DNA of 27,847 nucleotides from a virus, in IMG/VR virus record IMGVR_UViG_3300020457_001902, positions 1 through 27,847 of that record; one strand, 5' to 3'. Within the stretch, counting starts at the first letter, position 1; each line of letters begins with the position of its first letter. Below the pieces are notes generated by a model. The model was not told the DNA's origin. It made no database searches and saw only the letters and a program-made list of their open reading frames with translations. Positions 2,372 to 25,934 of this stretch are shown here, piece after piece. The position numbers and the translations under genes are program-made.

Positions 2372-3137
2372 TTTCTTTCTCCCATGTGTATCCCATAACC
2401 TTTTCTCTCATCTCGATTGGAAAACCTGTGAAGTGCCATATGTTCCCATACTTCATGTAGTGTGGTCGTTTACCTTTAATATTTACCCATTCAAATGGAT
2501 TCTGTGGATTAGTGATTGGTTCTGTTTGCCAATTACATTGCCACAACTCTCTTCTACCGATATCTAAAACATTCCATTTTGGTGATAACAGATTTACTTT
2601 TATATCCAAACCTTGTAGATGATAATTAAATAGTGTTTGTTCTCTTCCACCACCCTTATTCCAATTATCAAGTTCTTCTTGATATGTAAAATAAAAATCT
2701 TGTAATTGTTTGTATACCTCTAATGATTTGTTATCAAGAAACACCACTCCAGCATTTATGTATTTTTCATAATCCATCTCGTTTGCAAAATACACACCAT
2801 AATTATTTATACTATCATATATCCACTTTAAGTTACTATCATCATGTACACCACTAACACCATCTTCAAGTTCATTGAAAATATTTGGTGCATTCACTCT
2901 AATCATTGTATCACAATCAACAATACCAATCTTATCATAATCTTTACACACATCTATTACATTTAACTTGTTCCAAATAGGATATCCATATCTTTCATCA
3001 TGTTCTGTAATACAATGAAAATCTACACCATTTCTTAAACACCATCTTTCCCAAGATTTTTTTGAGTATTGTAAAAAATTAGAGTGTTTGTATTGAGATT
3101 TATTATGGTCAATAGCAACCATGTAAATTGCATTCAT
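2364..3137 (-). CDS. Glycosyltransferase, GT8-like, copy 2
   Basis: A 257-residue protein starting MNAIYMVAIDHN, with IGIVDCDTMIRVNAPNIF (DCD at 74-76), YINAGVVFLDN in the middle and IWHFTGFP near the end. These are the same landmarks, in the same order, as the GT8-like protein encoded immediately downstream, so the two are tandem paralogs that have diverged substantially. The start forms an ATGA overlap with the preceding methyltransferase stop, which suggests translational coupling. The two copies probably add different sugars or make different linkages; the substrate cannot be read from sequence. Confidence 0.75.
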   Translation of the reverse strand: MNAIYMVAIDHNKSQYKHSNFLQYSKKSWERWCLRNGVDFHCITEHDERYGYPIWNKLNVIDVCKDYDKIGIVDCDTMIRVNAPNIFNELEDGVSGVHDDSNLKWIYDSINNYGVYFANEMDYEKYINAGVVFLDNKSLEVYKQLQDFYFTYQEELDNWNKGGGREQTLFNYHLQGLDIKVNLLSPKWNVLDIGRRELWQCNWQTEPITNPQNPFEWVNIKGKRPHYMKYGNIWHFTGFPIEMREKVMGYTWEKENG

Positions 3138-3697
3138 AACTTAATCATTACTCCCTCTGAACCAACCAATTTTTCATTGGCCTTGTAAAACTTACCCTCT
3201 GGTAATCCCAAGTTAATTAATTCATATTTATCTTTAACAAAATTATCCACGAATTGTTTAACACCAGGAAAATAATTGTTACCATAATCATCCCAAATAA
3301 TATACTTAGGATTTAACTTCAAAGCATTTTCTGTATCTTGTTTCACTTGACTATATTCATGAATGGCATCTATCATAACCACATCTACATTTTTCCACTT
3401 ATCGAACTTCCACTCATCCTTATATGAATCCATTAGTTCATAGTGTATATTTTCTTCTGTAGGGAAATCTTTACTTGGTGGATTAATATTCATAGCATAA
3501 ACATTATTAAACAAGTGAGATAGTATTTTACTTGTTTGTCCTTTGTGGCATCCTATTTCTAATATATCACAATCACTTCCATAAAATTTATCAATCAATT
3601 GAGTTTTAAAATCCCATGATGTTGTGGTAGGCCATTGAAACTTATCTGGCATATCAAATACTAATTCTTTCACTTTCTCTTTACTTAGTCGGTTCAT
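3134..3697 (-). CDS. Class I SAM-dependent methyltransferase
   Basis: A 187-residue protein. The SAM-binding motif I is DILEIGCHKGQTSKIL (about residues 44-59). It is followed by an acidic post-I strand region (VYAMNINPP), VDVVMIDAIHEYSQVKQD around the middle, and IIWDDYGNNYFPGVKQF. The IDAxHxY..v..D pattern is typical of Methyltransf_24-type enzymes, many of which O-methylate sugars or small molecules in surface-glycan clusters. ATG 3697 has GAGGG about ten bases upstream and overlaps the preceding gene by 17 bases. Its position between glycosyltransferases suggests methylation of a sugar residue or nucleotide sugar; this is inference. Confidence 0.75.
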   Translation of the reverse strand: MNRLSKEKVKELVFDMPDKFQWPTTTSWDFKTQLIDKFYGSDCDILEIGCHKGQTSKILSHLFNNVYAMNINPPSKDFPTEENIHYELMDSYKDEWKFDKWKNVDVVMIDAIHEYSQVKQDTENALKLNPKYIIWDDYGNNYFPGVKQFVDNFVKDKYELINLGLPEGKFYKANEKLVGSEGVMIKL

Positions 3698-4361
3698 ACT
3701 CGTTTCCCTCTAATTTAAAATTAATAAATGGATTCAATGAATGAATATTACAATCATAAACCTCTCTTACTTTATCACGAACCATTCTTGTGTTTTTTTC
3801 TGTAAGGTACAACCAATGTTCTATCCCTTTCCAATTACCAGCATCTGGCCATTTATCTTTTACATAACCTCTGTAGTAAAGATTACCATTTATCTTACCC
3901 TCATCTTTACCACATATCATTATATTTTTTGCTCCCATGTAAGCGGCGATGTGTATACAAGTATTTAGTGTTGTTCTGATAGCAACCATCCTATCTGATT
4001 TTTTACTAATACATTGTAATCCTATATTATCATCACTAATTCCACTATCAAATACATAAAAATTATCTGATTTAATTATTGGATTTACCTCATCATATCC
4101 TTGATGTAATCTACTATATAAAAACTTAATATCTTTTCTATTAGATAATTCCTTTACGGTTTCATCCCACCTAACTCTTACTGCTAAATCTCTACCCACT
4201 ACATACTCACAAGGGAAATACTGAAACATTTGATTTACACCGATGGTTATTTTGTTTTCAAAGAATGATGGGTCTACATAATCCATAGATGAACCAGCAC
4301 CTATAATCCAAATATCTTCACCTTTGTGTATGTTTTTTAATTCTGTTATACTCTTGTTCAT
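3681..4361 (-). CDS. DUF115-like / Rossmann-type glycan-cluster protein
   Basis: The protein has 226 residues from ATG 4361, which forms an ATGA junction with the preceding stop; a GTG two codons upstream is less likely. The N-terminal region reads GEDIWIIGAGSSMDYVDPSFF, then ITIGVNQMF. This nucleotide-binding-like G-x-G-x-S pattern, with 'name the object and its target' spacing, is shared by DUF115/MptE-like proteins and some sialyltransferase-like GTs. A later GAKNIMICGKDEG segment is also typical of DUF115-like proteins. DUF115 proteins accompany nonulosonate transfer to flagellins (Maf family), which fits the CMP-sugar genes upstream. I cannot tell a transferase from a non-catalytic relative. 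Confidence 0.45.
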   Translation of the reverse strand: MNKSITELKNIHKGEDIWIIGAGSSMDYVDPSFFENKITIGVNQMFQYFPCEYVVGRDLAVRVRWDETVKELSNRKDIKFLYSRLHQGYDEVNPIIKSDNFYVFDSGISDDNIGLQCISKKSDRMVAIRTTLNTCIHIAAYMGAKNIMICGKDEGKINGNLYYRGYVKDKWPDAGNWKGIEHWLYLTEKNTRMVRDKVREVYDCNIHSLNPFINFKLEGNEYEPTK

Positions 4362-5251
4362 TTCCACTCAGTTTCTATATAATTAAAGATATCTTTGTAT
4401 GTATTACATTGGATAATATTTGCACCAGATAAGTGTCGTAACCAAGAACCTGTTTTGAATATTCCTCTTTCTCCCTTTTTACCATCACGATGAACTGGTG
4501 AACCATATTTCCATACCTCACTCAGATAAATAATAACATCACCACCAAAATACGAAGATACTTTACAATTACCACCAAGTAAACTTAAATGTTTTTCTGA
4601 AGATGCTTCAAGTTCGAATTGTGCAATATTATAACTAATAGCTCTATTTTTCATATGTTGTTTGATAGTGTAAACTTCAGGATGATTTTCTTCAAGATAT
4701 TCGTAATCATTTACTTTAATTATTTTTTGATGGTCTTTAAAATAACTATCACTTACTATTGGTGAAATGTAAATTATTTTGTATTTATCAGAAAATTTTT
4801 CAACTAATTTATCAATGAACTCCATACTATAATGATTTATTGAACAAAATGTATCCTCTTCAATCATAGCACCCATACTTAAATCTATACTTGGATGTTT
4901 CTCTAAAGTTTCGTTTACTTTATTTAAAGATAATTCGTGTATAAACTTATTATTAATAACAATCGTTGGTTTATCCCACCCAATTTTATCCTTAAATATA
5001 TTTTTTAATGGTGGTGGTGTCCAATCACTAAGAGTCCAATCAGGTCTTTCAAAATCATATAAATCATCAGGATTTTGTGGATGCCAAGATGGATTAATCA
5101 CAACCTTATCAGTAAATAATTTATATAAATCCATCAAACCAGGTTTTATGTGAACTTGATGTTCTATCTTATTCTGTACGGCATGCCAAACTCTTGGTAA
5201 ACCTCTAACCATATCCAACCCAAATTCAGTATCTTCCTTTATGTGTTTCAT
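4358..5251 (-). CDS. Uncharacterised protein of the glycan operon
   Basis: A 297-residue soluble protein that I do not recognise. The N-terminal third is rich in Trp and Pro (WHPQNPDDLYDFERPDW). The middle has alternating strand/helix segments (KPTIVINNKF, YKIIYISPIV). The C-terminal third contains LSLLGGNCKVSSYFGGDVIIYLSE and ends with an aromatic tail. That late glycine-rich strand-turn-strand resembles the nucleotide-sugar side of GT-B-like transferases, but there is no EX7E or other diagnostic motif. ATG 5251 follows the dehydratase stop with no gap and has GGAG eight bases upstream. Location among sugar genes suggests a transferase or sugar-binding role, but this is a guess. Confidence 0.4.
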   Translation of the reverse strand: MKHIKEDTEFGLDMVRGLPRVWHAVQNKIEHQVHIKPGLMDLYKLFTDKVVINPSWHPQNPDDLYDFERPDWTLSDWTPPPLKNIFKDKIGWDKPTIVINNKFIHELSLNKVNETLEKHPSIDLSMGAMIEEDTFCSINHYSMEFIDKLVEKFSDKYKIIYISPIVSDSYFKDHQKIIKVNDYEYLEENHPEVYTIKQHMKNRAISYNIAQFELEASSEKHLSLLGGNCKVSSYFGGDVIIYLSEVWKYGSPVHRDGKKGERGIFKTGSWLRHLSGANIIQCNTYKDIFNYIETEWK

Positions 5252-6244
5252 TTATATTACTCCAGTCTCTTCTAAAAACCTAAAGGCCTCTTCTCTACCC
5301 ATCAATGAATCTTTTGAGTTATAAGATTTTAACTCTCTTGTATCTCGTTCTCTTTTTAATGGTTGGCCTGGTAAAAAGTTCTCATTATCTTGATTAATTA
5401 AATAATTTTCACCACCATCTTCAGTTCTCAACCACTCTTCTTCTGAAATCATTTCTTCATGTATTTTTTCACCTGGTCTGATTCCTACCTCTTTCAATTT
5501 ACCATCTACATTATAATGGTTAAATAAACACTCAGCAATATCTGTTATCAAGAATGATTTTACTTTTGGTATTGCAATCTTTCCATGTGAGTTTACATTA
5601 TTATATGACCACTCAATCAAATCTGTAGCCTGTTCTAATGATAATAAAAACCTCGTCATTCTAAAATCTGTTATTGGTAAGGTTTCCTCACCATTATCTA
5701 AAATCTGTTTGAAGAATGGTATTACTGAACCTGTAGATTCTAATACATTCCCATACCTAACTAAACAAACTTTTACATCATCTTGTTTACTAGCATATTC
5801 CATATATAACTTCTCAGAAATTGCTTTACACATTCCATAAATATTTATTGGTTTACAGGCCTTATCTGTTGATACAAAAATTAATGTATCTATTTGATGA
5901 TTACTTCGTTTTACAGATTCAATAACATTTTGATGTCCAACAATATTAACATTTACAGATTCGAACCCATTTCCCTCACATATTGGTACATGCTTTAAGG
6001 CGGCTGTGTTTATCACTACATTTGGTTTGAAATCATCAATAGAATTTCTAATGGAATCTCTATCTTTTACATCACCAATCTTATATTCTATATTGGAATT
6101 GAACTCAGATGACTTTTGCATATTTACATGCTTATGTTCATCTCTTGAAAATACCATAATTTTATTATCATCTTGGTATCTACGAATTAATGTTTTACCT
6201 AAAGCACCTGTACCACCTATTATTAATATTTTTTCATCTTTCAT
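5252..6244 (-). CDS. NDP-sugar 4,6-dehydratase, CapD/PseB/FlaA1-type
   Basis: A 330-residue extended short-chain dehydrogenase. The NAD(P)-binding motif GGTGALG spans residues 10-16. VSTDKA follows at 124-129 and YGMCK at 136-140 gives the YxxxK pair; the T-D-K plus Y-x3-K arrangement is that of FlaA1/PseB/CapD. GIRPGEKIHEEMIS near the C-terminus is also typical of this subgroup. These enzymes convert UDP-GlcNAc to a 4-keto-6-deoxy sugar, with or without C5 inversion, which is the entry step to pseudaminic acid and other aminodeoxy sugars. ATG 6244 has AGGAG five bases ahead. A DegT aminotransferase and a formyltransferase in the same operon would act next on the 4-keto product. Inverting and retaining forms cannot be told apart here. 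Confidence 0.85.
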   Translation of the reverse strand: MKDEKILIIGGTGALGKTLIRRYQDDNKIMVFSRDEHKHVNMQKSSEFNSNIEYKIGDVKDRDSIRNSIDDFKPNVVINTAALKHVPICEGNGFESVNVNIVGHQNVIESVKRSNHQIDTLIFVSTDKACKPINIYGMCKAISEKLYMEYASKQDDVKVCLVRYGNVLESTGSVIPFFKQILDNGEETLPITDFRMTRFLLSLEQATDLIEWSYNNVNSHGKIAIPKVKSFLITDIAECLFNHYNVDGKLKEVGIRPGEKIHEEMISEEEWLRTEDGGENYLINQDNENFLPGQPLKRERDTRELKSYNSKDSLMGREEAFRFLEETGVI

Positions 6245-6252
6245 AACTTCTC

Positions 6253-7758
6253 CTAAGCACTTTGTCTTACTATTTTCTTACATACTATTTTGGCATTACA
6301 ATTAATACCCTCACACGATTCTAAATCCCATATCCATCCATGACCTAAACAAGTTATGGTTTTTTCATCTTCATCGTATACGCCATGGTATAATAAATCA
6401 TATTGTTGATGTACACAATACCTATCAATTTCATAATCACCAACTACCATTTTACCCTCTAAAACCTCAGATGATTGTACTATATCATATATTTTTTGAA
6501 GTCTACCATTATCTAAGTTTCTAAAAAAAGAAACAATCCAGGGATTAAATGTATCAGGATTTCTTTCGAACACACAAGTATTACTTAAGAATGCTGCATT
6601 TTCCCAATCATCAATGTTCTTACTTAGTAGTGTATATATTATTGTTTGTTCAATGTTTATTATATACCATGCACCTCTTCTTGTAGGTTCATCAACTATT
6701 TCAACTGTTTGTTTTCTGAAATCTAAACAAAAAGATTTATAATTTTTAACACTAATATAAATCTTGGACTTTATATATTTTTTTAACCAACTATTGTTCT
6801 CCAATAAACTTGGAAACTTTTCCATGATTAGTTCATCAATTAATTTTAGTTTGTCATCATCTAAAGTGTAATCTACTGAATATTGATTTTCCAAAATATA
6901 TTCTTTTTTATCAAATGGTCTAATCTTTCTATCTTGAATAGTATCATAAGTAAATTCATCACCAGGCATAACTCTATGAACTTCTTTCATATCATTAAAC
7001 TCAGGTATATCCCAACAATCAAAAAACACACTCGGTCTATCATCAAAGTAATTTAAATGATACATATCTTTTTGTAAAAAACATGATGGGCCTGCTGATG
7101 GGATTATTTTTTTAACACCCAAATACTCTATCATTCCTTTGTAGTGATTTACTTTTCTTTCTTTAAATTGTGATACAAAACTTTGTTTCTTCTCTTCCGT
7201 ATAATTGTAACAAGTAGGCCACCAAGTAGCACCAGAGAATTGACCAGTAGCCCAATCTATTTTTTTGAACTTGTTTATAATATCTTCCTTGTTTTCAGGA
7301 GTGAATGTTGAATCATTCCAATTTAAAAAAGTAAGATTACCATCATCGATACATATAGAACTATCTTCTCGTTCTCTATCTATTTTTTCTGAACAATATG
7401 TTACGGCTGTTGTGTTACCTATATTTAACTCTTTAGTTATAAAATCTGTAAACCCTACCTTTTTTAATTTGTTTTTCAGTACATCATAACGAAAATTTGG
7501 AATCAATACTTTTACTTCTTTGTTTTTTGAATGTAATCTTTTTAAAAACTTTTTATCAAAGTGGTCTTCGTGAATATGAGATATAAAAAGTATATCAGTT
7601 TTTGAAATAATGTTATCCCAATCTAAATTTTTATTATCTGGATAAACACTCCATGTTTTAAAAAATGCTGGATTATCACTATGCCAAGGGTCACATAATA
7701 TATTTACATCATTGGTCTCAATCAATAGACCGGCATGACCTGTATAGGTAATTTTCAT
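6253..7758 (-). CDS. MBL-fold plus C-terminal Rieske protein, CMP-Neu5Ac hydroxylase-like
   Basis: A 501-residue two-domain protein. Residues 1 to about 280 are a metallo-beta-lactamase fold: ITYTGHAGLLIE, CDPWHSDNPAFFKTW near 22-36, and the metal motif HIHEDH at 61-66, followed by a GQFSGATWWP segment. DPW..PAF, SHxHxDH and the later FSG are landmarks I recall from CMP-N-acetylneuraminate hydroxylase (CMAH). The C-terminus has CVH (448-450) and CLGH (470-473), followed by GWIWDL, matching a Rieske [2Fe-2S] site (CxH, then CxxH) of the CMAH type. In CMAH the Rieske domain comes first; here it is last. Its place beside a CMP-sugar synthetase suggests hydroxylation of an N-acyl group on an amino sugar (for example to N-glycolyl). 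The start forms an ATGA overlap with the formyltransferase. Confidence 0.8.
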   Translation of the reverse strand: MKITYTGHAGLLIETNDVNILCDPWHSDNPAFFKTWSVYPDNKNLDWDNIISKTDILFISHIHEDHFDKKFLKRLHSKNKEVKVLIPNFRYDVLKNKLKKVGFTDFITKELNIGNTTAVTYCSEKIDREREDSSICIDDGNLTFLNWNDSTFTPENKEDIINKFKKIDWATGQFSGATWWPTCYNYTEEKKQSFVSQFKERKVNHYKGMIEYLGVKKIIPSAGPSCFLQKDMYHLNYFDDRPSVFFDCWDIPEFNDMKEVHRVMPGDEFTYDTIQDRKIRPFDKKEYILENQYSVDYTLDDDKLKLIDELIMEKFPSLLENNSWLKKYIKSKIYISVKNYKSFCLDFRKQTVEIVDEPTRRGAWYIINIEQTIIYTLLSKNIDDWENAAFLSNTCVFERNPDTFNPWIVSFFRNLDNGRLQKIYDIVQSSEVLEGKMVVGDYEIDRYCVHQQYDLLYHGVYDEDEKTITCLGHGWIWDLESCEGINCNAKIVCKKIVRQSA

Positions 7759-8462
7759 AACTTTAAATAAATCCTTTTTCCCTCGTGTGTAAAATACGGT
7801 CCTGGTCTATCTTTGAAACTCCAAGCCCTAACCCAATCGTAAATTTTTTCTAATGGTTGTGGATATTCTATCTCCAAGTTTTTATTAGAATCTATATCAT
7901 AGTAATGTGGATTTGGTTCTGGTTCTAAAAATTCAGTAATCTCACCATTGATTATTTTGTGATAAGTTTCTACGAACATTACAAACGCCAATCTTTCTAC
8001 TCGTTTAAATAATGTTTCTGCAGTATCGTGTTCTTCAACCTTACATTTAAAACTTTCTATTATTGGCCCATCATCTAACTCTGGTGTGATATAATGTAGT
8101 GTAGTTCCATGATATTTTTCACCATTCATAATAGCCCAACTACACATATATCTACCTCTATAATTTAATCTGTAAGAATGATGTAGATTAATTATTTGAC
8201 CATTCATAGCATCAATGTGTTCTTCTGTAATCAACTTCCAATAATTAATAGAAAATATTAAATCAGGTTTTAAATCTATAACATCTTGTATATCATCAAA
8301 TGTATTTATTCCCCAATTAGTAGCAGTTTCTTTCAACTTATCATTCCACCAAGTTTTGTATGTTGGTGCCACAACCCCAACTATCTCACAATCGTTTTGT
8401 TTGATAATCCACTCAAGTATTTTTACTGAGATATCTCTACTTCCTAATATGGCTATCTTCAT
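7755..8462 (-). CDS. Sugar N-formyltransferase (Formyl_trans_N family)
   Basis: A 235-residue protein. It begins with a Rossmann-like strand (MKIAILGSRDISVKIL) and carries the N10-formyl-THF transferase signature: INLHHSYRLNYRG (N92, H94) and HGTTLHYITPELDDGPII (D130), which is the N-H-D catalytic set. The length is near that of stand-alone sugar N-formyltransferases, longer than GAR transformylase and without the methionyl-tRNA formyltransferase C-terminal domain. The expected reaction is transfer of a formyl group from N10-formyltetrahydrofolate to the amine of a nucleotide-activated amino sugar. The adjacent aminotransferase would supply that amine. Its ATGA overlaps on both sides tie it to the aminotransferase and the MBL-Rieske gene. 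Confidence 0.85.
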   Translation of the reverse strand: MKIAILGSRDISVKILEWIIKQNDCEIVGVVAPTYKTWWNDKLKETATNWGINTFDDIQDVIDLKPDLIFSINYWKLITEEHIDAMNGQIINLHHSYRLNYRGRYMCSWAIMNGEKYHGTTLHYITPELDDGPIIESFKCKVEEHDTAETLFKRVERLAFVMFVETYHKIINGEITEFLEPEPNPHYYDIDSNKNLEIEYPQPLEKIYDWVRAWSFKDRPGPYFTHEGKRIYLKL

Positions 8463-9589
8463 ATTTTACTTATCAATGTTTCCGCAATAGTTTGTATATC
8501 TTCACTCTCTAACCACCAACCACAAGGTAACGAGATTTGATGTTTGTGAAAGTAATCTGTTTCAGGTAAATCCACCATACTATCTTTGAAACAACTATAG
8601 TAATGATTTGGTGTATGAACCAATCCAGCATTTATTCCCTCATCATTCAACTCTTGTATTATCTTATCTCTATCTAAATGTTCTGATAGTATCAAAGTGT
8701 ATACCCAAAAACTTGGTGCTGAATCTGCTGGATAATGTAATCCATTTATATCTTCATGGTCTTTAAATAATTGTTCATACAACAACCCATTAAATTTGTG
8801 TTTGTTTATAATCCTATCCATGTGTGAAATTTGTGATAATCCAATGGCAGCTGTAATGTTATTCATATGAAACTTAAACCCAGCCTCAACAACATCCATC
8901 TCCCATCTTTGTCCTTTCCACTCACCTTTCTCATCTTTGGTAGCATCTCTATCTATACCAAACCACTTTAATGCCTTGGCTCTTTGAAAATCATCTTTGT
9001 TCGTATTTACAACCAACAATCCACCATCACCTGTAGTAATGTGTTTGATAGCCTGTAAACTATAACAAGTGTAATCAGCAAACTCATGTATTTCTTTTCC
9101 TTTGTATGTTGCTCCAATTGAATGAGCGGCATCTTGAATAAACATAATATTGTGTTTGTTACATATATCGTAAACTTGTTCTAAATCACATGGTAAACCA
9201 GACCAATTCACACACAATACAGCTTTTGTTAATGGTGTGATAAGGTCTTCTATTACATATGGATTTATATTACCAGTCTGATGGTCAATATCAGCCCAAA
9301 CTACTTTAGCACCAAATGTATGTATTGGTGTATTGGATGCCACACAAGTCATGGATGTTGCAATAACCTCATCACCTGGCCCAACACCACTCAACTTCAA
9401 TGCCAAGGTTAATGCTGATGTACAACTATTAAGTGCAATAGTTTGTTCATGTTTAAATCTCTTCTTAAAATAGTTTGTTAGTTCTGTAACTTGTTCACCC
9501 TCATTTACAAAACCACTATTTAGAACTGGTTCAATTTGTTCTAATGCTTTCTCTGTATCAATGTGAACCTTAAACATTGGATATTTCAT
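8459..9589 (-). CDS. DegT/DnrJ/EryC1/StrS-type sugar aminotransferase
   Basis: A 376-residue PLP enzyme of normal family length. Visible landmarks are NSGFVNEGEQVTELT near the N-terminus, NSCTSALTLAL (residues 54-64), VNWSGLPCDL, the PLP-phenol aspartate in QDAAHSIG (D153) and the Schiff-base lysine in YSLQAIKHITTGDGG (K182). The family aminates keto sugars on nucleotide diphosphates (PseC, ArnB, WecE, QdtB types). Given the upstream-acting dehydratase in the same operon, the likely substrate is the 4-keto (or 3-keto) intermediate. ATG 9589 has GGAG five bases upstream. The gene is translationally coupled to the formyltransferase through a four-base overlap. Confidence 0.9.
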   Translation of the reverse strand: MKYPMFKVHIDTEKALEQIEPVLNSGFVNEGEQVTELTNYFKKRFKHEQTIALNSCTSALTLALKLSGVGPGDEVIATSMTCVASNTPIHTFGAKVVWADIDHQTGNINPYVIEDLITPLTKAVLCVNWSGLPCDLEQVYDICNKHNIMFIQDAAHSIGATYKGKEIHEFADYTCYSLQAIKHITTGDGGLLVVNTNKDDFQRAKALKWFGIDRDATKDEKGEWKGQRWEMDVVEAGFKFHMNNITAAIGLSQISHMDRIINKHKFNGLLYEQLFKDHEDINGLHYPADSAPSFWVYTLILSEHLDRDKIIQELNDEGINAGLVHTPNHYYSCFKDSMVDLPETDYFHKHQISLPCGWWLESEDIQTIAETLISKI

Positions 9590-9600
9590 ATTAACTCCGT

Positions 9601-10335
9601 TTACTTGTGAGCATCTTTTACAAGAGCTCGTTTTTTTCCTAATTCCCCAACCTTTTTATCATCTTGAGGTCGTGAAACAAATAGTGCTTTACTTCTATCA
9701 CCAACTTCACCACTTTTCAAAACACTCCATGTTATAGATTTTCTTTCACGCTTTACTTCTGGTACACCATGATAAGATGTATCTGAGTTATGGAATATTA
9801 CTAATCTATTATTAAGTGGTGCAAATGAGTTTGTACATTCCGTCATATCATCGTTCCATACTTCGAAATAACCACTATCCTCTGGTTTCCAATCTTCATT
9901 AAAATAGATTAAACAAGTTAGTTCTTTTCTTAATCCTGATTCAGGACTAACTCTGGCATCACTATGAACTGCCTGAAATCCATCTGTAACCATTGTTCTT
10001 ATTCCTGACCATCTCATATGATAATCAGGTACTAAACCACCTATATCGGTAATCTCACTTAACTTTTCTGTAAACTCATCACTATGAATGTATTCTAAGA
10101 AATCATGAAGTATTCCTCTCGTATCATCTGTATCGTAAGAAATCATACCTTGTTCGAGTATGTTTTTTTCACCATCAATCATCTCATGTCCACCATGCCA
10201 TTTAGGGTCTTTTAAAGATGGCCATCTATCGTGTACCATCCTTAGTGTCATATCATTTAAAAAGTTATCTATTACCCATATTGGATATGGTTCATCAAAC
10301 TTTTGTATTTTCATATTATCATTTAGAATTTCCAT
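9601..10335 (-). CDS. 2-oxoglutarate/Fe(II) oxygenase (P4H-like)
   Basis: A 244-residue protein. The facial triad is visible as HSD (H124, D126) and H189 in SYHGVP, with R198/K199 placed to bind 2-oxoglutarate. The intervening LTCLIYFNEDW and GYFEVWNDD stretches are the usual jelly-roll strands of 2OG-FeII_Oxy_3 proteins. ATG 10335 has a strong AGGAG seven to eight bases ahead and overlaps the cytidylyltransferase by 17 bases, so it belongs to the sugar cassette. It could hydroxylate a sugar, an acyl group or a protein side chain; no substrate can be inferred. It is only distantly similar to the three tandem oxygenases near 22 kb. Confidence 0.8.
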   Translation of the reverse strand: MEILNDNMKIQKFDEPYPIWVIDNFLNDMTLRMVHDRWPSLKDPKWHGGHEMIDGEKNILEQGMISYDTDDTRGILHDFLEYIHSDEFTEKLSEITDIGGLVPDYHMRWSGIRTMVTDGFQAVHSDARVSPESGLRKELTCLIYFNEDWKPEDSGYFEVWNDDMTECTNSFAPLNNRLVIFHNSDTSYHGVPEVKRERKSITWSVLKSGEVGDRSKALFVSRPQDDKKVGELGKKRALVKDAHK

Positions 10336-11008
10336 TATTCATCTCCTTATACATCATCTCCGCCAACTTAAATTCTATCATATTATCTATATCCAAACTT
10401 TCACTTTGTCTCATCAACATTGGATAACTCTCTGGTGTTTTAATATTATTATACCTTTTAAATTCTTTTTTTGAAATAATCACCAAACCAAAGTTCAGTT
10501 TGTAATAATGCCCATCAAGGTCTTGACTTCTTGGATGGTCTGGCCAATCATAATTGATAGATTCATCATGTGTAATATGGTCATACCAAATATAATCTTT
10601 TATATAATCTATTCCTATCATTGAGTTACACTTACTTTTATTATATGCATTGATGGCCTTCATGTAAAAATCAAACCTAAGTAATGGACTCGTACATTGA
10701 CATAACATAGAGTGTTCTGTATCTGTATTTAGTAGAACCTCTCTCCAATAATCTGTTATTGGTGCATCTGAACTTGCCAAGTAAGGGTCTCTTTCAATAA
10801 ACTTTACACCATATGATTCTGATATCTTTTTTGATTCATCACAATCACTATTAACAACTATATCTTTTATTGCACCAACTCTTTTTAATTGCATCAACAC
10901 ATCAAGTTTAACTTCTAATAAACTTTTACCAGCAAATGGTCGAGTGTTTTTACTCTTAACTCTCTCTGAACCTTTTCTTGTTGGTACTACGGCCGTTATA
11001 TCAACCAT
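10319..11008 (-). CDS. CMP-sialate/nonulosonate cytidylyltransferase-like (NeuA/PseF-like)
   Basis: The protein has 229 residues from ATG 11008, which overlaps the preceding stop (ATGGTTGA) and follows a G-rich stretch; a frame extension to 11056 lacks support. The nucleotide-binding signature VVPTRKGSERVKSKNTRPF is at the extreme N-terminus and is followed by AGKSLLEVKL, as in NeuA-type enzymes. IVVNSDCDESKKISESYG, then LASSDAPITDYW and LCQCTSPLL, match conserved NeuA blocks. The reaction would be CTP plus a 2-keto-3-deoxy sugar acid giving CMP-sugar. No NeuB/PseI/LegI synthase is visible in the window, so the sugar acid must come from the host, from genes outside, or this enzyme activates another sugar. 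Confidence 0.8.
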   Translation of the reverse strand: MVDITAVVPTRKGSERVKSKNTRPFAGKSLLEVKLDVLMQLKRVGAIKDIVVNSDCDESKKISESYGVKFIERDPYLASSDAPITDYWREVLLNTDTEHSMLCQCTSPLLRFDFYMKAINAYNKSKCNSMIGIDYIKDYIWYDHITHDESINYDWPDHPRSQDLDGHYYKLNFGLVIISKKEFKRYNNIKTPESYPMLMRQSESLDIDNMIEFKLAEMMYKEMNNGNSK

Positions 11009-11960
11009 TATCCCCCCAATATTTATCCCAAGTAGTAAACTTATATCCTTTATCATCTATATATTGAACACCTCTTGGTTTTTCTGCTGTTACCTTTGTG
11101 ATATATTGTGCCATATCGTGTTCTTCTAACCACTCCCAAACTAATTGTGTTCCTGTTTTACCATTTACTAATCCTCTATCTGGTTTGGCCTTACAAGTAA
11201 ATAAAACTACATCATAATCTTTTGATAGTTTTTCTAATGATTCTTTAGAACCCTCAATTGGTTCATCATAAATTGTTCCATCATGGTATCCTTTTGAATT
11301 TTTATGAATCACACCATCAAAATCTATTGCAATATTTTTTTGTTCATCTTTGAATCCAATCTTACGAACTTCTCTTTCACTATTATAATGTGCAATATCT
11401 TCTGGTTTGTTTCCTCCTATTGGTGGACAAACTTTACCACTACCATGTGTTAACTCATATTGTAATAATAATGATAATACTTCTGCTGTATGATAATAAT
11501 CAACACCCATCACTACTTCTGAAGTTTTTGGTACGGTTTCTATTAATGATTTTGCAGTTATACAAGCCAACTTCATATCATTAGAATATCCCCATTGTAA
11601 AGCCTTAACAATATCTCGTGATGTACCTGAAGAAGAAAATCCTAAGATTAAAGATTTTTTCATTTGGGATTCTGTTTTACTTGATGTTACCATTTTCAAC
11701 CATTGAACCATCCACTGGTCAAAATTAGTATCATTGATTAGTGATGTAACTACGGTACCACTACCAGGGCATTGTGCATTCTTTGTTCCATTACTCAATC
11801 TTGATATATCAATAGCCGCATGGTCTGCAACTGCCAAGTTACCACCATGACCAAGTACATATATATCATCACACTCATTAAATTTTTCTTGTAGTTCTTT
11901 CCAATCATCACTCTGAACTACTTTGTAAAACACCTGTTCTAAATTTTCTATATCTAACAT
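11001..11960 (-). CDS. SIS (GmhA-like) - HAD phosphatase fusion protein
   Basis: A 319-residue two-domain protein. Residues 1 to about 180 form a sugar-isomerase (SIS) domain: IYVLGHGGNLAVADH (35-47), LINDTNF and the phosphosugar loop GFSSSGTSRDIVKAL (107-121), the layout of phosphoheptose isomerase GmhA. Residues 210-319 form a HAD-like domain with the nucleophile motif IAIDFDGVIH (DFDG 213-216), VVLFTCKAKPD and a late YIDDKG acidic motif. Sugar-phosphate isomerisation and dephosphorylation would thus be joined, as separate GmhA/GmhB or KdsD/KdsC enzymes do in bacteria. A strong GAGGAA precedes ATG 11960. It sits directly before the cytidylyltransferase, so it may make its substrate. The exact sugar is unknown. 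Confidence 0.75.
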   Translation of the reverse strand: MLDIENLEQVFYKVVQSDDWKELQEKFNECDDIYVLGHGGNLAVADHAAIDISRLSNGTKNAQCPGSGTVVTSLINDTNFDQWMVQWLKMVTSSKTESQMKKSLILGFSSSGTSRDIVKALQWGYSNDMKLACITAKSLIETVPKTSEVVMGVDYYHTAEVLSLLLQYELTHGSGKVCPPIGGNKPEDIAHYNSEREVRKIGFKDEQKNIAIDFDGVIHKNSKGYHDGTIYDEPIEGSKESLEKLSKDYDVVLFTCKAKPDRGLVNGKTGTQLVWEWLEEHDMAQYITKVTAEKPRGVQYIDDKGYKFTTWDKYWGDNG

Positions 11961-11961
11961 A

Positions 11962-12609
11962 CTATTTCCTCACATTCATCTCTTGACTAAAATTCTGATT
12001 ATAAAACATATTTTGTTCGGTTTGTTTTTGAATTGTTTTTGGGTGGTATAAACTTAACTCTTCATGTGGTGGTAAATGTGAATATGTTTTCGCTCCAACT
12101 ATATGTTCATGTAATGGTCTAGTCCATCTAATTTCTTTAGAATTACGAAATACTCTACTTTGATAATCAGGATAATTCACCCAATTTTTTTCATTTATTC
12201 TCCAACTCCATTTCCTAACATCCTCTTCTGTCATACCATCAATGGTGTTTACTCTTGGAATCCAAATCAAATCAACATCGTTTATTTCTAATATTTGTTT
12301 TAATTGTTTTAGTAATATTTCATTAGGATACTCATCCGCATCTATATGAAAAATGTAATCACCACTACTCTTTTCTATGACAGAGTTTTTTTGAGCTGAA
12401 AAATCTTTATTAAGTTTTCTATCATAGTGTATGACTCTACTATCTATTGAGTATAACTCAACCACCTTTTTTACATCACTATCATCCCCATCAATACAGA
12501 TTATAACTTCGTCCTCTTCATCTATACCGATAAGAAGTTTTCCTAACAACCTTTCAAGTTCTTCCGACTCATTATGTACTGTAATACCATAGCTTATTTT
12601 AATTGACAT
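11962..12609 (-). CDS. Glycosyltransferase family 2 (WaaE/KdtX-like)
   Basis: A 215-residue soluble GT-A enzyme. It starts ISYGITVHNESEELERLL, has VIICIDGDDSD at the first acidic site, the FSAQKNSVIEKSSGDYIFHIDADEYP stretch carrying the DAD metal motif, and RPLHEHIVG with YHPKT toward the end. This pattern is common in small bacterial GT2 enzymes such as LPS core glucosyltransferases. It ends one base before the SIS-HAD start codon region and overlaps the upstream 170-residue protein gene by 11 bases. It probably adds one sugar from a nucleotide donor to a growing oligosaccharide in the cytoplasm. Confidence 0.85.
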   Translation of the reverse strand: MSIKISYGITVHNESEELERLLGKLLIGIDEEDEVIICIDGDDSDVKKVVELYSIDSRVIHYDRKLNKDFSAQKNSVIEKSSGDYIFHIDADEYPNEILLKQLKQILEINDVDLIWIPRVNTIDGMTEEDVRKWSWRINEKNWVNYPDYQSRVFRNSKEIRWTRPLHEHIVGAKTYSHLPPHEELSLYHPKTIQKQTEQNMFYNQNFSQEMNVRK

Positions 12610-13111
12610 TATCCCTCTCTAATAAATCTTCAATATTTTTTCGTTGTATTGCTTCAAACCCTTTGATAGTTTCTTCTGGTATGTTTGGTGAATCTATTTC
12701 TAAATAAACTCTTCTCTTCATACATTCTCTTCTATCAAAAGTTCTCCACATCCCCAACCTATTAACTAATCCTCGTAACTTGTTATATATCTTTGTTGTT
12801 TCACCTTGATTCCTATCAGCCTTATCTGTTATTTTACCAGCAAGAGTACCATCCTCTATTTCTATACCACCCAATGAATTAAAGATTTCTTCTAATTGTC
12901 CTTTTGGTAATGGCCTTTGACCAACTCGTTGTAATTGTAATCCTACAACAAATCGTTTGATTCTACCTGTACTTTTCTTTCTGTATTTAAAATCAGAATT
13001 AACGATAAGCACGGTTCGTTTTACACCCTTAGATTCTTTTTTATTTTTGTATATAAAATTAACTATCTGGCCGGCTTTTACTTTATCCCAACTTGTATTA
13101 CGAATCGCCAT
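12599..13111 (-). CDS. Conserved-looking phage protein of unknown function
   Basis: A 170-residue basic protein that I cannot assign. It opens with a strand-rich part (VKAGQIVNFIYKNK, RTVLIVNSDFKYRKK, IKRFVVGLQLQRVGQ) that looks like a small beta-barrel. A lysine/arginine-rich helical region follows, containing RMGL-type and CMKRRVYLEID segments, and the tail is acidic. The basic surface suggests nucleic-acid binding, but no named motif is present. ATG 13111 has AAGGA five bases ahead and overlaps the zinc-ribbon gene by 14 bases. The pair interrupts the run of glycosyltransferase genes, so it may be a phage core or structural pair rather than part of sugar metabolism. Confidence 0.5.
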   Translation of the reverse strand: MAIRNTSWDKVKAGQIVNFIYKNKKESKGVKRTVLIVNSDFKYRKKSTGRIKRFVVGLQLQRVGQRPLPKGQLEEIFNSLGGIEIEDGTLAGKITDKADRNQGETTKIYNKLRGLVNRLGMWRTFDRRECMKRRVYLEIDSPNIPEETIKGFEAIQRKNIEDLLERDNVN

Positions 13112-13568
13112 CTAAATCCTTAATGATACCCATATCTTGACATGCTTCTAAAAACTCATATTGTCCATAAGTTTTAGCATTCTCAACATCTAAAGCCATA
13201 TCATGTCCTTCATACTTTGGATTTTTTTGTTCTTCAGGTGATAGTTTACGAACTTCTGCAAACTTGTAATTCCAATTAGTTTTAGTTCCCTCAGGATAAA
13301 TCATACCAAACTTACCCATGTTTAATACTGATGGAAACCACATTATGTTTCTATCTTCATCAAAAAATGAAACATCATTCATCAATTGTGTTGCTCCTAA
13401 TTGTGCATCTTTTAATTCTGGTGATTCCCATTGATATGCTGAATTACTTGTGTATCCACAATTAAAACATATGTATGAACTAAATGTTTTCTCTGCCTGT
13501 TCTTGTACATCTTCAAAACATTTCTCACCATTAAAACATACAGGACAACTTATTTTCTTTTCTGCCAT
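13098..13568 (-). CDS. Zinc-ribbon protein of unknown function
   Basis: A 156-residue protein. The N-terminal 40 residues carry two CxxC pairs, C8-P-V-C11 and C34-F-N-C37, with an extra C17, which is the zinc-ribbon layout. The remainder is mixed and contains NIMWFPSVLNMGKFGMIYP, an aromatic segment with no recognised family. AAGGTG lies four bases before ATG 13568, immediately downstream of a GT-B glycosyltransferase stop. It overlaps the next gene by 14 bases. Zinc ribbons in phages often mediate protein or nucleic-acid contacts; nothing more can be said. Confidence 0.5.
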   Translation of the reverse strand: MAEKKISCPVCFNGEKCFEDVQEQAEKTFSSYICFNCGYTSNSAYQWESPELKDAQLGATQLMNDVSFFDEDRNIMWFPSVLNMGKFGMIYPEGTKTNWNYKFAEVRKLSPEEQKNPKYEGHDMALDVENAKTYGQYEFLEACQDMGIIKDLDGDS

Positions 13569-13569
13569 C

Positions 13570-14844
13570 TTACACCTTCTTTAGTTTTGGTAATTTTAAA
13601 TCCACTTGTTGTGGTACTGAATTTAACAATGGTGATAATATATTACCAAGTTTTTCTTTCATCTTCTCGTAACTGAATTGTTGTTTACAATATACTTCTA
13701 ATTGTTTTGCCAATACTAAATGTTTTTCATAGTTAGAAAAAACATCTTTCATTACTTGTGATGCTTGTTGGTAATTCACAGTAAACCATTGTGAACCCTC
13801 AAAATAAATATCAGGTGGGAATGCATTTTTAGGTACTTTAGTTAAACTTCCATCCAATAATGCACAATAATTTGGATTCAAGAAATCTGTATGACCACTC
13901 CAACCACTAGCAATAATTGGTTTACCACTTTGTGTGGCCTCTAACAACGGTCTACCAAATCCCTCTCCATGTGTAAATGATACATGAGCCTTTACTTTTT
14001 TGTGATTGTATAACTCATTCATTTCTTCATCTGTAAAATCACCATGTATTAAGTAAATGTTTGGTAACTTACCATTAACATCTTTTTTAATACTTCTAAT
14101 CTTATTTAAAATCTCTTCTCTATCAATAACAGAAAATGTAGCACCATTTGTTTTTAAGATTAAACCTGGTTGTTTTTCTTGGTTTTTAAATGTTTCTAAA
14201 AATACTTTCAACATCATACCGATATCTTTTCTATCTTCCCCAAGATTACCAGCCAACCAATGGCCTGTAAATAAAAAGTTCCAATCCGAATCTATGTTTT
14301 CAAATACTGAATCTATGTTACTCGTATCTGTTGTACTCTTATACACATCAGTATCCATACCCTCAAACAAAACTTCCATTGGTTTTTTAACTTTTAATTC
14401 ACCATCTTTTTGACCTGTTTGTTGATTTACTCTTTCAAAGACTGCCTGTTCAAATCCATGTTTTGAGAAATTAGATGTAAGGATATTTAAATCCATTCTA
14501 TTCATACCATCAACCCAACTTGAAGGTGGAACCGTAGTTTCAATTCCTGCTGTCATACCCACATTCTTTACACCCAAAGCAGTAAACTCATTAGGAACCA
14601 CAAGATGTAAATGTAAATCAGGTTGTTTCTCCATCTTTGGTTGTGGTAATATTCTTTTTCTTATTTCTTGGTGAACTTTATTATCTGGTTCTAAAGCATT
14701 CGTTGGTGTATTTCCCCATCTTACTGAATTGATTCTTACATCGTAATCTAAATCAATTAAGGCTCTTACAATATCCCTTGAATGGTTTCCGTACCCACTT
14801 CTCGTGGTTACAGGTGCTGTTACTAATACTAATGGTTTACTCAT
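13570..14844 (-). CDS. GT-B glycosyltransferase (GT4-like)
   Basis: A 424-residue protein with the GT-B two-lobe pattern. The N-terminal lobe starts LVLVTAPVTTRSGYGNHSRDI. The C-terminal lobe has WNFLFTGHWLAGN, a long strand-helix core and the donor-binding EX7E motif in THGEGFGRPLLEATQSG, followed by KPIIASGWSGHTDFL. These are standard GT4 (glycosyl transferase group 1) features for nucleotide-sugar binding. GAGGG precedes ATG 14844, which abuts the stop of the next upstream GT-B gene. The two share general architecture and appear to be an old duplication. The sugar and acceptor are unknown. Confidence 0.85.
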   Translation of the reverse strand: MSKPLVLVTAPVTTRSGYGNHSRDIVRALIDLDYDVRINSVRWGNTPTNALEPDNKVHQEIRKRILPQPKMEKQPDLHLHLVVPNEFTALGVKNVGMTAGIETTVPPSSWVDGMNRMDLNILTSNFSKHGFEQAVFERVNQQTGQKDGELKVKKPMEVLFEGMDTDVYKSTTDTSNIDSVFENIDSDWNFLFTGHWLAGNLGEDRKDIGMMLKVFLETFKNQEKQPGLILKTNGATFSVIDREEILNKIRSIKKDVNGKLPNIYLIHGDFTDEEMNELYNHKKVKAHVSFTHGEGFGRPLLEATQSGKPIIASGWSGHTDFLNPNYCALLDGSLTKVPKNAFPPDIYFEGSQWFTVNYQQASQVMKDVFSNYEKHLVLAKQLEVYCKQQFSYEKMKEKLGNILSPLLNSVPQQVDLKLPKLKKV

Positions 14845-16290
14845 TTATCCCTCTACTTTATAAACATTGATTCTTTCTCTTGGTGTAAACTTATCCCATG
14901 CAGTTTCCATATGGTCGATAAAATTCTTACACATCCATCTAGCACTCATCATCGATTCATCACTCTTCACAAAATAATGTCCTTTAACACCACATCTTTT
15001 TCTTTCATCTCTACCCATTTCATACCACTCTTTAATTTTATCAGCGGCATCTTGCCAATCACATCTATCATCAAAAATATATGGTGTTGGAACTGAACCC
15101 ATCAAAGAACGAGTCTTAGGCCAAACTGGTTTACACCATTCACCCCAAGTTAGTTCTTCATTGTGTTCCCACTCTCTCCAATCGTGTAGTGATTTAATTT
15201 CTTCATATTGTTTGTAATTTATCATCTCACCATTAATTTTGAAACCTACTTGGTCTTGTAATCCACCTGTAACATTAACAATAATTGGTGTTCCTGCCAT
15301 CAATGATTCACAAGTTCCTAATCCGAATCCCTCGTTACTCGCAATATTCATAGTAACATCAGCAATGTTGTATAAATAATTCATTTGTTTATTGTTAAGT
15401 TTTTGGTGTGAAAAAACAACATTTACTTCTGGCATCAAGTGTTCAATCAACTTAGGTAAATCAGTTCCATTATTATCAACTGGTTGAGTATGCATTACAT
15501 AAGTAACTCTACTTCTTTTCTCTGGTGGTAATTGATTTACAAATTGTTGAAATGCCAACAAACAATCACCAACCATTTTTCTTCTGATGTTTCTGTTTAC
15601 ATACAACAAAACAAAATCATTAGGTCTGTTACCCAATAACTCTTGTTTAAACTTCCTAAGTTCAAGTAACTCTTCTTTTTCTGTAATTGGATAAAAATCT
15701 TTTTCATTGATACCATGTGGTACATATGTTGAATCCCAATCTGTTCTTGGTTTATTCTTACAAACTTCTTGAACTATAGCATGTGTTTGTTTTGAAATGT
15801 TCATAATCAAATCACAACTCTCGTAGAAATTTTGGTTGTATTGTGGAGCAGGAAAATCATCCCATATATTGTAATAAAATATAGGTATATCTTGTCTTAG
15901 TTCATGTTCCATTTGATATAACCACTGCCAAAATCTTGGGTCGGTGTAATGTAGAATGGCATCTGGTTTCTCTATACCGATAATCTGTCTTAATAAATCT
16001 GGATTACCATAACCACTTGTGGGATAGATTTTTAAATAGGCATCCTTTACACCAGTATCTTTTCGTATTTGTTCATTCATATCAAACACTTTACCCTCAT
16101 CAGGATGTTTGATAGCACCACCGATTTGAACCCAATCAAATTTATCAAGTGTACCCATTACAATCTCTCTTGACATTGTACCAACACCACTCGACATCCT
16201 TAGGTCATCTGATAACAATAAAACCTTTTTCTTCTTCTCAAAAATCTTTTCTATTTCAACTGATTTTAATTTTGGTAACTTAACACTCAT
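14845..16290 (-). CDS. GT-B glycosyltransferase (GT4-like), longer paralog
   Basis: A 481-residue GT-B enzyme. The N-terminal lobe begins KKVLLLSDDLRMSSGVGTMSREI; the acceptor-side lobe includes DAILHYTDPRFW and an IWDDFPAPQYN segment. The C-terminal lobe has NDFVLLYVNRNIRRKM and the EX7E donor motif in SNEGFGLGTCESLMAG, then TPIIVNVTGGLQDQVG. AAAGG precedes ATG 16290. It is the first gene of the continuous glycosyltransferase block and abuts the second GT-B gene with no spacing. The protein ends in a long helical tail rich in Trp and Arg. Function: transfer of a sugar from a nucleotide donor; specificity unknown. Confidence 0.85.
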   Translation of the reverse strand: MSVKLPKLKSVEIEKIFEKKKKVLLLSDDLRMSSGVGTMSREIVMGTLDKFDWVQIGGAIKHPDEGKVFDMNEQIRKDTGVKDAYLKIYPTSGYGNPDLLRQIIGIEKPDAILHYTDPRFWQWLYQMEHELRQDIPIFYYNIWDDFPAPQYNQNFYESCDLIMNISKQTHAIVQEVCKNKPRTDWDSTYVPHGINEKDFYPITEKEELLELRKFKQELLGNRPNDFVLLYVNRNIRRKMVGDCLLAFQQFVNQLPPEKRSRVTYVMHTQPVDNNGTDLPKLIEHLMPEVNVVFSHQKLNNKQMNYLYNIADVTMNIASNEGFGLGTCESLMAGTPIIVNVTGGLQDQVGFKINGEMINYKQYEEIKSLHDWREWEHNEELTWGEWCKPVWPKTRSLMGSVPTPYIFDDRCDWQDAADKIKEWYEMGRDERKRCGVKGHYFVKSDESMMSARWMCKNFIDHMETAWDKFTPRERINVYKVEG

Positions 16291-20700: not shown

Positions 20701-21242
20701 TCCATCTCCTTACATTGAAAACACTCACCACAAATTTCACCATCATGACTTCTACACCACCAAACCTTTTCTTGTAATTCTTTTGGTAGTTCATTCCAAC
20801 ACCTTTCTTTTGTAAATGTTTTTCTAAATGGTGTTTTAAATTTTATTCTATGTTTAGTATACACATCATTTTGATTTGCTGCCTGTACTACTTTATGAAC
20901 CATTCTTAATACTGGCCATGGTGGGCCTTCGTTTATCGTAGTAGATACAATTACCTCATCATACTCTTTTGCATATGCAATCCTCATACCATCAACAACA
21001 CAAATAAAAACATCACCAAGTATGTGTGCATACTGAGTAGATGTAGTTAGTTCAAATGGTCTTATTTTTTGTAAAATAGGATTCATATTACCAACTGCAT
21101 CTAATTGTCTTGTCATCATCTTACCACGATTTAATAACTTAACATGGTGTACATGAATTTGATAATCTGTATTCTTTAAATGCCAATATAAACATGCAGT
21201 AGAATCTAAACCACCACTCCATAAAAACAATACTTTATACAA
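20688..21242 (-). CDS. QueC-like PP-loop ATPase with four-cysteine zinc site
   Basis: A 184-residue protein. VLFLWSGGLDSTACLYW carries the PP-loop SGGLDST (residues 9-15), and the C-terminus has cysteines 163, 171, 174 and 177 in a C-x7-C-x2-C-x2-C pattern, as in 7-cyano-7-deazaguanine synthase QueC. VHHVKLLNRGK and the EVIVSTTINEG stretch (in place of QueC's G-x-N) differ from a textbook QueC. The start is TTG 21242, nested in the stop of the preceding oxygenase and preceded by AGAGGG at eight bases. Other 7-deazaguanine genes (QueD, QueE, FolE, tgt/DpdA) are not in the window. It may make preQ0-like bases for DNA or RNA, or act on another carboxylate. Confidence 0.65.
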   Translation of the reverse strand: MYKVLFLWSGGLDSTACLYWHLKNTDYQIHVHHVKLLNRGKMMTRQLDAVGNMNPILQKIRPFELTTSTQYAHILGDVFICVVDGMRIAYAKEYDEVIVSTTINEGPPWPVLRMVHKVVQAANQNDVYTKHRIKFKTPFRKTFTKERCWNELPKELQEKVWWCRSHDGEICGECFQCKEMECLT

Positions 21243-21741
21243 AACAATTACCCTCTACTTGGAATACTATTGTAAATCTATCACCATTACATTTTAAAAC
21301 TTGATGTGCAGCAAATGCTGGATACATAACTAATCGACCAGGTTTTGGTTTTACTTTTCCTCTCAAAATTTTAAGTTCACCCCCATCAAAATCATCATTT
21401 AAAAATAACACACCCGTCAATTTAAATGTTGCTGTCTTATCTTCACTACTAGCAAAATCTGAATGTAAGGCATAATCCTCAGTAAATTCACCTTTACGAT
21501 AATACAACCCAACTATATCTTTGAACCCATCAATATCAAATTTCCAATGTAATGTATTGGCTAACTTGAAGGTCATCCATGCTCTATCAACTAACCATTT
21601 ATCATCTAACTCTGTTACATAAACTCTATTAATTTTGTTTTTAGAGTTTCTAAGATGTTCCTTTAATTTATCACACTCATCTTGTGATAAAAAATTATCT
21701 TTGATTACACTCCACTTAAAATCTTTATTTTCTTTAAGCAA
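21235..21741 (-). CDS. 2OG/Fe(II) oxygenase, P4H-like, tandem copy 1
   Basis: A 168-residue prolyl-4-hydroxylase-like protein. H93 and D95 (ALHSDF), H146 (AAHQV) and R155 (DRFTIVF) form the iron and 2-oxoglutarate site; LTGVLFLNDDFDGGEL is the conserved core strand. It is the last and shortest of three adjacent paralogs, all ending in a G-[ND]-x-F tail (here GNCFV). The start codon is TTG 21741, inside the end of the previous copy with AGG eight bases upstream. Likely role: hydroxylation of a protein (proline or other) or a small substrate. Confidence 0.8.
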   Translation of the reverse strand: MLKENKDFKWSVIKDNFLSQDECDKLKEHLRNSKNKINRVYVTELDDKWLVDRAWMTFKLANTLHWKFDIDGFKDIVGLYYRKGEFTEDYALHSDFASSEDKTATFKLTGVLFLNDDFDGGELKILRGKVKPKPGRLVMYPAFAAHQVLKCNGDRFTIVFQVEGNCFV

Positions 21742-22330
21742 AACTATTACCTACATATAACTCTTGTATCGTATATCTCGTGCCTTCTGTTACAGGTGAA
21801 ACTCTATGAGATAAAAATGTTGGAAAGATAGTAATCGTTCCCTTTTTCTTAGGTACTGATATCCATTTTCCATCTTTATCTTTCATAGCAAATTGTAAAT
21901 CCCCACCTGAATAATCATCATTCAACATAATAACACCTGTGAGTTTTCTTTGTTTTCCATCGGTGGGATTCATATCTATGTGCCAAGTATAATGGCCATC
22001 AATATTATATTCTATATATTTTAATTCACCCTCTGGCCCTTTGATATGAAATCTAAATACTTGTTCATTAACAATCTTAATCATATTATACATTTTATCT
22101 TGTAACCAACTCCAATCTAATTTAGGATTACTTCTATAATCATTTGGTTGTTCTAACAAATAACTTTCTTTTGTTTTTCTGATTGAATCAATCATGTGGT
22201 TTTCTCTGAAATCTGATGAATCATCAACCACACAACCACCTACGATTGTCTCGGATGCATTAACTTCATTGATTATATCTAAACATTTATCATCATCTAA
22301 TATTGGTATCTGAACATATAAACTCTTCAC
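21734..22330 (-). CDS. 2OG/Fe(II) oxygenase, P4H-like, tandem copy 2
   Basis: A 198-residue paralog of the flanking oxygenases. H117 and D119 (YTWHIDMN), H175 (FLSHRVSPV) and R185 (GTRYTIQ) are the catalytic and cosubstrate residues; LTGVIMLNDDYSGGDLQF is the shared core strand. The tail VGNSFA is the family ending. It starts at GTG 22330 in a GTGA overlap with copy 3, with GGAG ten bases ahead. It resembles copy 3 (PKHD-type, SFLSHRVTPIT) more than copy 1. Confidence 0.85.
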   Translation of the reverse strand: MKSLYVQIPILDDDKCLDIINEVNASETIVGGCVVDDSSDFRENHMIDSIRKTKESYLLEQPNDYRSNPKLDWSWLQDKMYNMIKIVNEQVFRFHIKGPEGELKYIEYNIDGHYTWHIDMNPTDGKQRKLTGVIMLNDDYSGGDLQFAMKDKDGKWISVPKKKGTITIFPTFLSHRVSPVTEGTRYTIQELYVGNSFA

Positions 22331-25695: not shown

Positions 25696-25697
25696 AC

Positions 25698-25934
25698 TTA
25701 TTCTCCTTGTTGAATTTGGGTCATCATATTCTTTGGTATTGAACCACAATTACCACAAGCAAATACTTGTATTGGTACAATTGCTTCTTTACCTGTTGGT
25801 GATACTAATGGTGATATTCTTTTTAGAAAGAATGATTGTATGAAAGATGCGTTTCCACATTCTTCACAAGTTATTGTTTCTGTATCCCCTATATCTATCT
25901 GTTGTGGTGGTTCTTGGTATTTTCTATCACTCAT
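25698..25934 (-). CDS. Small zinc-ribbon protein
   Basis: A 78-residue protein with two CxxC pairs (CEEC near residue 23; CGNC near residue 60) separated by a hydrophobic, strand-rich segment, the layout of a zinc ribbon. The start forms an ATGA overlap with the gp44 stop, so the two are translated together. Similar small zinc ribbons accompany replication or transcription genes in marine T4-like phages; whether it binds the clamp loader or polymerase cannot be told. Confidence 0.65.
   Translation of the reverse strand: MSDRKYQEPPQQIDIGDTETITCEECGNASFIQSFFLKRISPLVSPTGKEAIVPIQVFACGNCGSIPKNMMTQIQQGE

Follow-up and report, generated by a model that had tools for sequence, protein, structure and literature searches.

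A NamH-like protein encoded within a variable sugar cassette of an uncultured T4-like phage

The locus and its gene neighbourhood

The window, by which the complete analysed stretch of 27,847 nucleotides is meant (IMG/VR record IMGVR_UViG_3300020457_001902), contains an open reading frame for a NamH-like protein of 501 amino acids on the minus strand at positions 6253-7758. The initial annotation had delimited this frame exactly, with the strand unstated, and all motifs which it quoted are present in the protein. Its domains and the neighbouring genes are as follows.

3134-3697, minus strand: Methyltransf_24-like protein (Pfam, below cut-off)
3681-4367, minus strand: MptE/Maf-like protein, possible CMP-sugar transferase, weak (Pfam below cut-off; PHROG 4603, E 2e-4)
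5252-6244, minus strand: PseB/CapE/FlaA1-like UDP-GlcNAc 4,6-dehydratase (Pfam, NCBIfam)
6253-7758, minus strand: NamH-like protein with metallo-beta-lactamase (MBL), SCP2 and Rieske parts, 501 amino acids (Pfam and alignments)
6301-6429, minus strand: Rieske part, amino acids 444-486 (Pfam and actinobacterial alignment)
6493-6825, minus strand: SCP2_Rv3818 domain (PF25451), amino acids 312-422 (Pfam, with a Rhodococcus protein as positive control)
7039-7758, minus strand: MBL part, amino acids 1-240 (Pfam and actinobacterial alignment)
7755-8462, minus strand: sugar N-formyltransferase-like protein, Formyl_trans_N (Pfam, NCBIfam), 4 bp overlap with the NamH-like gene
8459-9589, minus strand: DegT/PseC-like sugar aminotransferase (Pfam, NCBIfam)
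9601-10335, minus strand: 2OG-Fe(II) oxygenase-like protein (Pfam)
10319-11056, minus strand: NeuA/PseF-like cytidylyltransferase (Pfam, NCBIfam)
11001-11960, minus strand: SIS (GmhA-like, weak) and HAD-like protein (NCBIfam, PHROG)
11962-16290, minus strand: glycosyltransferases of GT2 (11962-12609) and GT4 type (13570-14844 and 14845-16290), and two small intervening genes

The start of the NamH-like gene overlaps the stop of the formyltransferase-like gene, upstream of which lies the PseC-like gene, and the PseB/CapE-like dehydratase gene follows 8 nt downstream. The same gene order is kept in a second contig (G001). The NeuA/PseF-like and SIS-HAD genes are located upstream of the PseC-like aminotransferase gene on the same strand, and throughout the same-strand run from 16504 down to 282, consecutive genes overlap or are separated by no more than 19 nt. 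The initial annotation had assigned the gene to one transcript with the NeuA-like gene. The linkage on one strand was confirmed, while a shared transcript for the gene run is only plausible; scans of the run for promoters and terminators gave results at or below chance.

PseB, PseC and PseF represent steps in the synthesis of CMP-pseudaminate (PMC5109656). The dehydratase, aminotransferase and cytidylyltransferase of the phage all scored under the NCBIfam equivalog cut-offs, and therefore the exact sugar is not assignable. Between the PseB-like and MptE-like genes, a protein of 297 amino acids is encoded (4358-5251), which is 84% conserved in G001 and showed no match in Pfam, NCBIfam or PHROG.

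Domain architecture and relationship to NamH

Three matches were obtained with Pfam: Lactamase_B_3 at amino acids 2-93 (38.7 bits, cut-off 24), SCP2_Rv3818 at 312-422 (41.8 bits, cut-off 28.2) and Rieske at 444-486, the latter being marginal if taken alone (20.6 bits, cut-off 20.3). The Rieske call is secured by both Cys/His pairs and the motif HGWxWDL, which are identical in the aligned actinobacterial homologues. The MBL part contains the motifs GHAG (position 7), ILCDPW (DPW at 23), NPA, PDNxxLDW, HIHEDHFD (HIHEDH at 61), NWND, QFSGATWWP (SGA at 175) and PSAGP. The Rieske ligands are C448-V-H450 and C470-L-G-H473, and HGWIWDL covers residues 473-479. The MBL domain thus precedes the Rieske domain, as had been recognised correctly in the initial annotation.

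NamH (Rv3818), the UDP-N-acetylmuramic acid hydroxylase of Mycobacteriales, possesses an N-terminal MBL domain of the UlaG type and a C-terminal Rieske domain (PMC10050696), and the Pfam model SCP2_Rv3818 is named after it. The phage protein likewise combines a UlaG-type MBL at the N-terminus and a Rieske domain at the C-terminus in a single chain, with SCP2_Rv3818 between them, as is characteristic of the NamH family. Colinear relatives were detected in Nocardia, Rhodococcus and Tsukamurella in a tblastn search against plasmids (best match 96% coverage, 29% identity), and overall identity to actinobacterial NamH-like proteins was 29-31%. A NamH-like protein of Rhodococcus aligned across the entire length in BLASTP (5e-60, 194 bits), and hhalign with an actinobacterial NamH-like protein yielded 99.9% (E 7e-38). 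The Rhodococcus control protein shows an identical order and spacing of the three domains (SCP2_Rv3818 163.9 bits). In comparison to four actinobacterial proteins, identity was 35-38% in the MBL part, 21-24% in SCP2 and 34-38% in the Rieske part, and the motifs HxHxDHFD, SGAxWxP, PSAGP and CxH...CxxHGWxWDL are common to the phage protein and the NamH-like proteins. The comparison set consisted of NamH-like proteins of related genera and the Pfam model named after Rv3818; NamH of Mycobacterium itself was absent from it. An AlphaFold model from two sequences reached a pLDDT of 32, and the family placement is based on sequence evidence, with no claim regarding the fold.

Judging from these alignments, assignment to the NamH family is well supported, and the phage protein is a divergent member with the ordinary NamH domain order and not a CMAH. 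It differs from NamH in that identity is only about 30% and in being encoded in a phage genome. Furthermore, the two Rieske ligand pairs lie two residues further apart in the phage protein, and its neighbours are PseB-, PseC- and formyltransferase-like genes instead of Mur genes. The gene of the Rhodococcus homologue adjoins a MurB gene.

CMAH, the CMP-Neu5Ac hydroxylase, converts the N-acetyl group of an activated sugar to N-glycolyl. It shares Rieske and MBL domains with the phage protein, but the Rieske domain is N-terminal in CMAH (PMC8227644) and located at 444-486 here; the two are set apart by the described domain order and not by a CMAH sequence. The initial annotation had regarded the protein as CMAH-like, with an order swapped relative to both CMAH and NamH. 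Both points require correction. The order is not swapped, since NamH is already MBL-first (PMC10050696) and the phage protein is colinear with NamH-like proteins; only CMAH begins with the Rieske domain. The label CMAH-like names the wrong family, as the architecture including SCP2_Rv3818 is that of NamH.

The conditions under which the initial annotation would have regarded its reading as refuted, among them a better match to UlaG-type lactonases, did not apply: the MBL part is far closer to NamH-like proteins, and NamH itself is described with a UlaG domain. A UlaG-type lactonase or UPF0173 hydrolase was rejected: PRK00685 gave 35.4 bits against a cut-off of 144 and UPF0173 21 bits, in comparison to 194 bits with the Rhodococcus protein. 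Among PDB sequences, the best match of the MBL part was 8a90, a non-haem di-iron monooxygenase with MBL fold (E 7e-7). In 8a90 the MBL follows another N-terminal region, and the match is limited to amino acids 2-109 of the phage protein. Proteins from Nostoc and Pseudanabaena plasmids matched the MBL part only and showed no SCP2 or Rieske match in Pfam, and a scan of genome contigs with the single phage protein revealed three weak archaeal MBL matches, which covered approximately the first 80 residues only. The cyanobacterial plasmid MBL proteins (L022:3001-4434 and L024:5064-6434), which are related to the N-terminus of NamH, adjoin RiPP genes (TOMM, lanthipeptide).

Conserved residues and selection

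In two phage and four actinobacterial sequences, six histidines (H8, H61, H63, H66, H450 and H473) and three cysteines (C22, C448 and C470) are invariant. The [2Fe-2S] ligands of the NamH family, CxH and CxxH, are thus represented by C448, H450, C470 and H473. All six sequences retain HxHxDH and the two Rieske pairs, whereas no histidine of the MBL part beyond H66 is conserved. The lack of a conserved later histidine is unlike the usual di-zinc hydrolases and would fit an oxygenase-type site.

The function of the NamH-like gene is maintained by purifying selection. Between the window and G001, this gene showed a dN of 0.020 and a dS of 0.24 (dN/dS about 0.08), the lowest dN of the block, and is better conserved than any other gene of the cassette; for the neighbouring cassette genes, dN was 0.05-0.19 and dS about 0.3-0.7. 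Only one of the 22 residue differences between the two proteins affects a position common to all actinobacterial sequences. With the third contig (G002), identity amounts to 95% over the first 81 residues and to 69-80% for the next upstream genes. Since part of the high conservation stems from the low dS, the similarity has probably been increased further by recent exchange between these phages.

Distribution and the variable cassette

The NamH-like gene was found in three IMG/VR contigs of one phage lineage, namely the window, G001 and G002, where it is cut at the contig end. The source is an uncultured T4-like phage; G001 encodes a T4-like DNA polymerase, which shares 44% identity with the polymerase of Microcystis phage Mel-JY01. 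No match to the phage protein was obtained among INPHARED phages and none to the Rhodococcus NamH-like protein among viral contigs, and pattern scans of the viral contigs revealed no further member. A clamp loader query retrieved at least 578 related stretches. Of 30 related contigs searched as a whole, none contained a NamH-like match. In nine related regions, the backbone and both GT4 genes persist where covered, and the sugar cassette downstream differs. The glycosyltransferase stretch at 11962-16290 forms the conserved backbone edge of this variable cassette, and the NamH-like gene hence sits in a swappable glycan cassette.

Among the alternative cassettes of related phages, one encodes NeuB, a second contains phosphonate-type genes and a third the halves of a transketolase. 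The NeuB-family gene (L144:12364-13194 in G027; 205.6 bits) occupies the same slot, with DegT-like and nucleotidyltransferase-like genes nearby. At L140:11097-13984 (G021), the slot contains a fusion of cytidylyltransferase and PEP mutase, followed by split genes for the N- and C-terminal parts of a TPP enzyme. This gene set resembles the phosphonate (phosphonopyruvate) pathway, and similar genes are present at L142:6515-9412 (G031). In a further phage glycan cassette (L138:17172-18864, G030), a transketolase-like enzyme is split over two neighbouring genes, one for its N-terminal and one for its C-terminal half.

Hypervariable glycan/LPS islands have been described in the pelagimyophages, which are marine T4-like phages (PMC7029224). 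As in the phages analysed here, a variable block of glycosyltransferase and sugar-synthesis genes lies between conserved core modules; a difference is that no NamH-type hydroxylase is described in the part of that account considered here (PMC7029224). A search of the literature revealed no N-glycolyl hydroxylase of a phage, and the setting of the gene inside a sugar-making cassette of a phage appears to be new.

Some further observations concern other genes of these contigs. A protein of 500 amino acids (window 22905-24407) carries a C-terminal Hint-like domain (PT-HINT, just under the cut-off), and its homologues in G001 and G002 comprise about 755 amino acids. Three adjacent, related oxygenase-like genes (window 21235-22896; about 170-200 amino acids) diverge fast between phages (35-50% identity). 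A short AMP-binding, acyl-CoA ligase-like protein (window 25012-25749) is also present in three related phages; its match is confined to the later section of the Pfam model. G001 encodes a phage protein whose N-terminus carries the methylation motif of type IV pilins (L015:9288-9728, G001 69288-69728).

Proposed function

That a phage encodes a member of the N-acyl-sugar hydroxylase families with MBL and Rieske domains, linked to nucleotide-sugar genes, is supported by these data, as the initial annotation had proposed. N-glycolyl formation is a concrete hypothesis for this protein. As the best explanation, held with moderate confidence, the protein would be a NamH-family enzyme which converts N-acetyl to N-glycolyl on a UDP-2-acetamido-4-formamido-trideoxyhexose destined for a surface glycan.

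In the proposed mechanism, the Rieske [2Fe-2S] cluster would relay electrons from a host reductase to the metal centre of the MBL domain, which is probably a di-iron centre. There, O2 would be used to hydroxylate the N-acetyl methyl group of the nucleotide sugar, yielding N-glycolyl. No electron-donor gene was identified, which counts against this explanation. The most likely substrate would be a UDP-2-acetamido-4-amino/formamido-trideoxyhexose produced by the PseB-, PseC- and formyltransferase-like enzymes of the neighbouring genes. We infer this substrate from the neighbourhood: the UDP-trideoxyhexose is the first candidate owing to the close association of the gene with those for the dehydratase, aminotransferase and formyltransferase, and a UDP-linked 2-acetamido sugar is favoured because NamH itself acts on such a sugar, namely UDP-MurNAc in the cytoplasm (PMC6378297). 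With an identity of only about 30%, the substrate of NamH is not transferable to the phage protein, a NamH-family member whose own substrate probably differs. The glycosyltransferases of the cassette could attach the product to the host surface or to a phage glycan, and plausible roles are a block of superinfection or decoration of the phage. More tentatively, the phage pathway as a whole may produce a trideoxyhexose that bears both N-glycolyl and N-formyl groups, or a nonulosonate made from this sugar, by which the host surface or the virion itself would be relabelled.

A CMP-nonulosonate of pseudaminic- or legionaminic-like type might be hydroxylated instead, in cooperation with the NeuA/PseF-like enzyme, so that a CMAH-like action would be performed by a NamH-like protein. 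PseB-, PseC- and PseF-like genes do occur in one run with an MptE/Maf- or sialyltransferase-like gene, and NeuB is encoded in a related phage cassette (L144). This substrate is less favoured because NeuB was not found in the window, G001 or G002, although all three contigs are fragments; moreover, NamH uses a UDP sugar (PMC6378297). We therefore consider such an activity rather unlikely.

Even less probable is the hydroxylation of host UDP-MurNAc, which would result in N-glycolylated host peptidoglycan, e.g. as protection against the lysozymes of rival phages. The architecture equals that of NamH, whose substrate is UDP-MurNAc (PMC6378297), but the identity to NamH-like proteins is low and the gene is placed between dehydratase and formyltransferase genes and not among Mur genes.

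MBL folds are functionally promiscuous, and the N-terminus is weakly shared with UPF0173 hydrolases; the protein might thus be a hydroxylase of another small molecule or a metal-dependent hydrolase, with the Rieske domain as a redox sensor or relic. Against this slightly more doubtful reading, the Rieske ligand pairs and NamH-like motifs are kept under purifying selection, and the lack of a conserved MBL-part histidine after H66 is unlike the usual Zn hydrolases. A CMAH with swapped domains, although its functional domains equal those of the phage protein (Pfam; PMC8227644), was rejected as extremely improbable, since NamH shows exactly this MBL-first order together with SCP2_Rv3818 and no swap is needed.

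Hence the domain order of the phage protein poses no evolutionary puzzle, as both orders occur in named families. The main known occurrences of N-glycolyl sugars are in animal sialic acid, where CMAH forms them, and in actinobacterial peptidoglycan, where NamH does. If the proposed function is correct, viruses would use N-acyl hydroxylation of the NamH type on other sugars, outside peptidoglycan synthesis, and the cassette would provide a small, testable gene set for the synthesis of N-glycolyl sugars.
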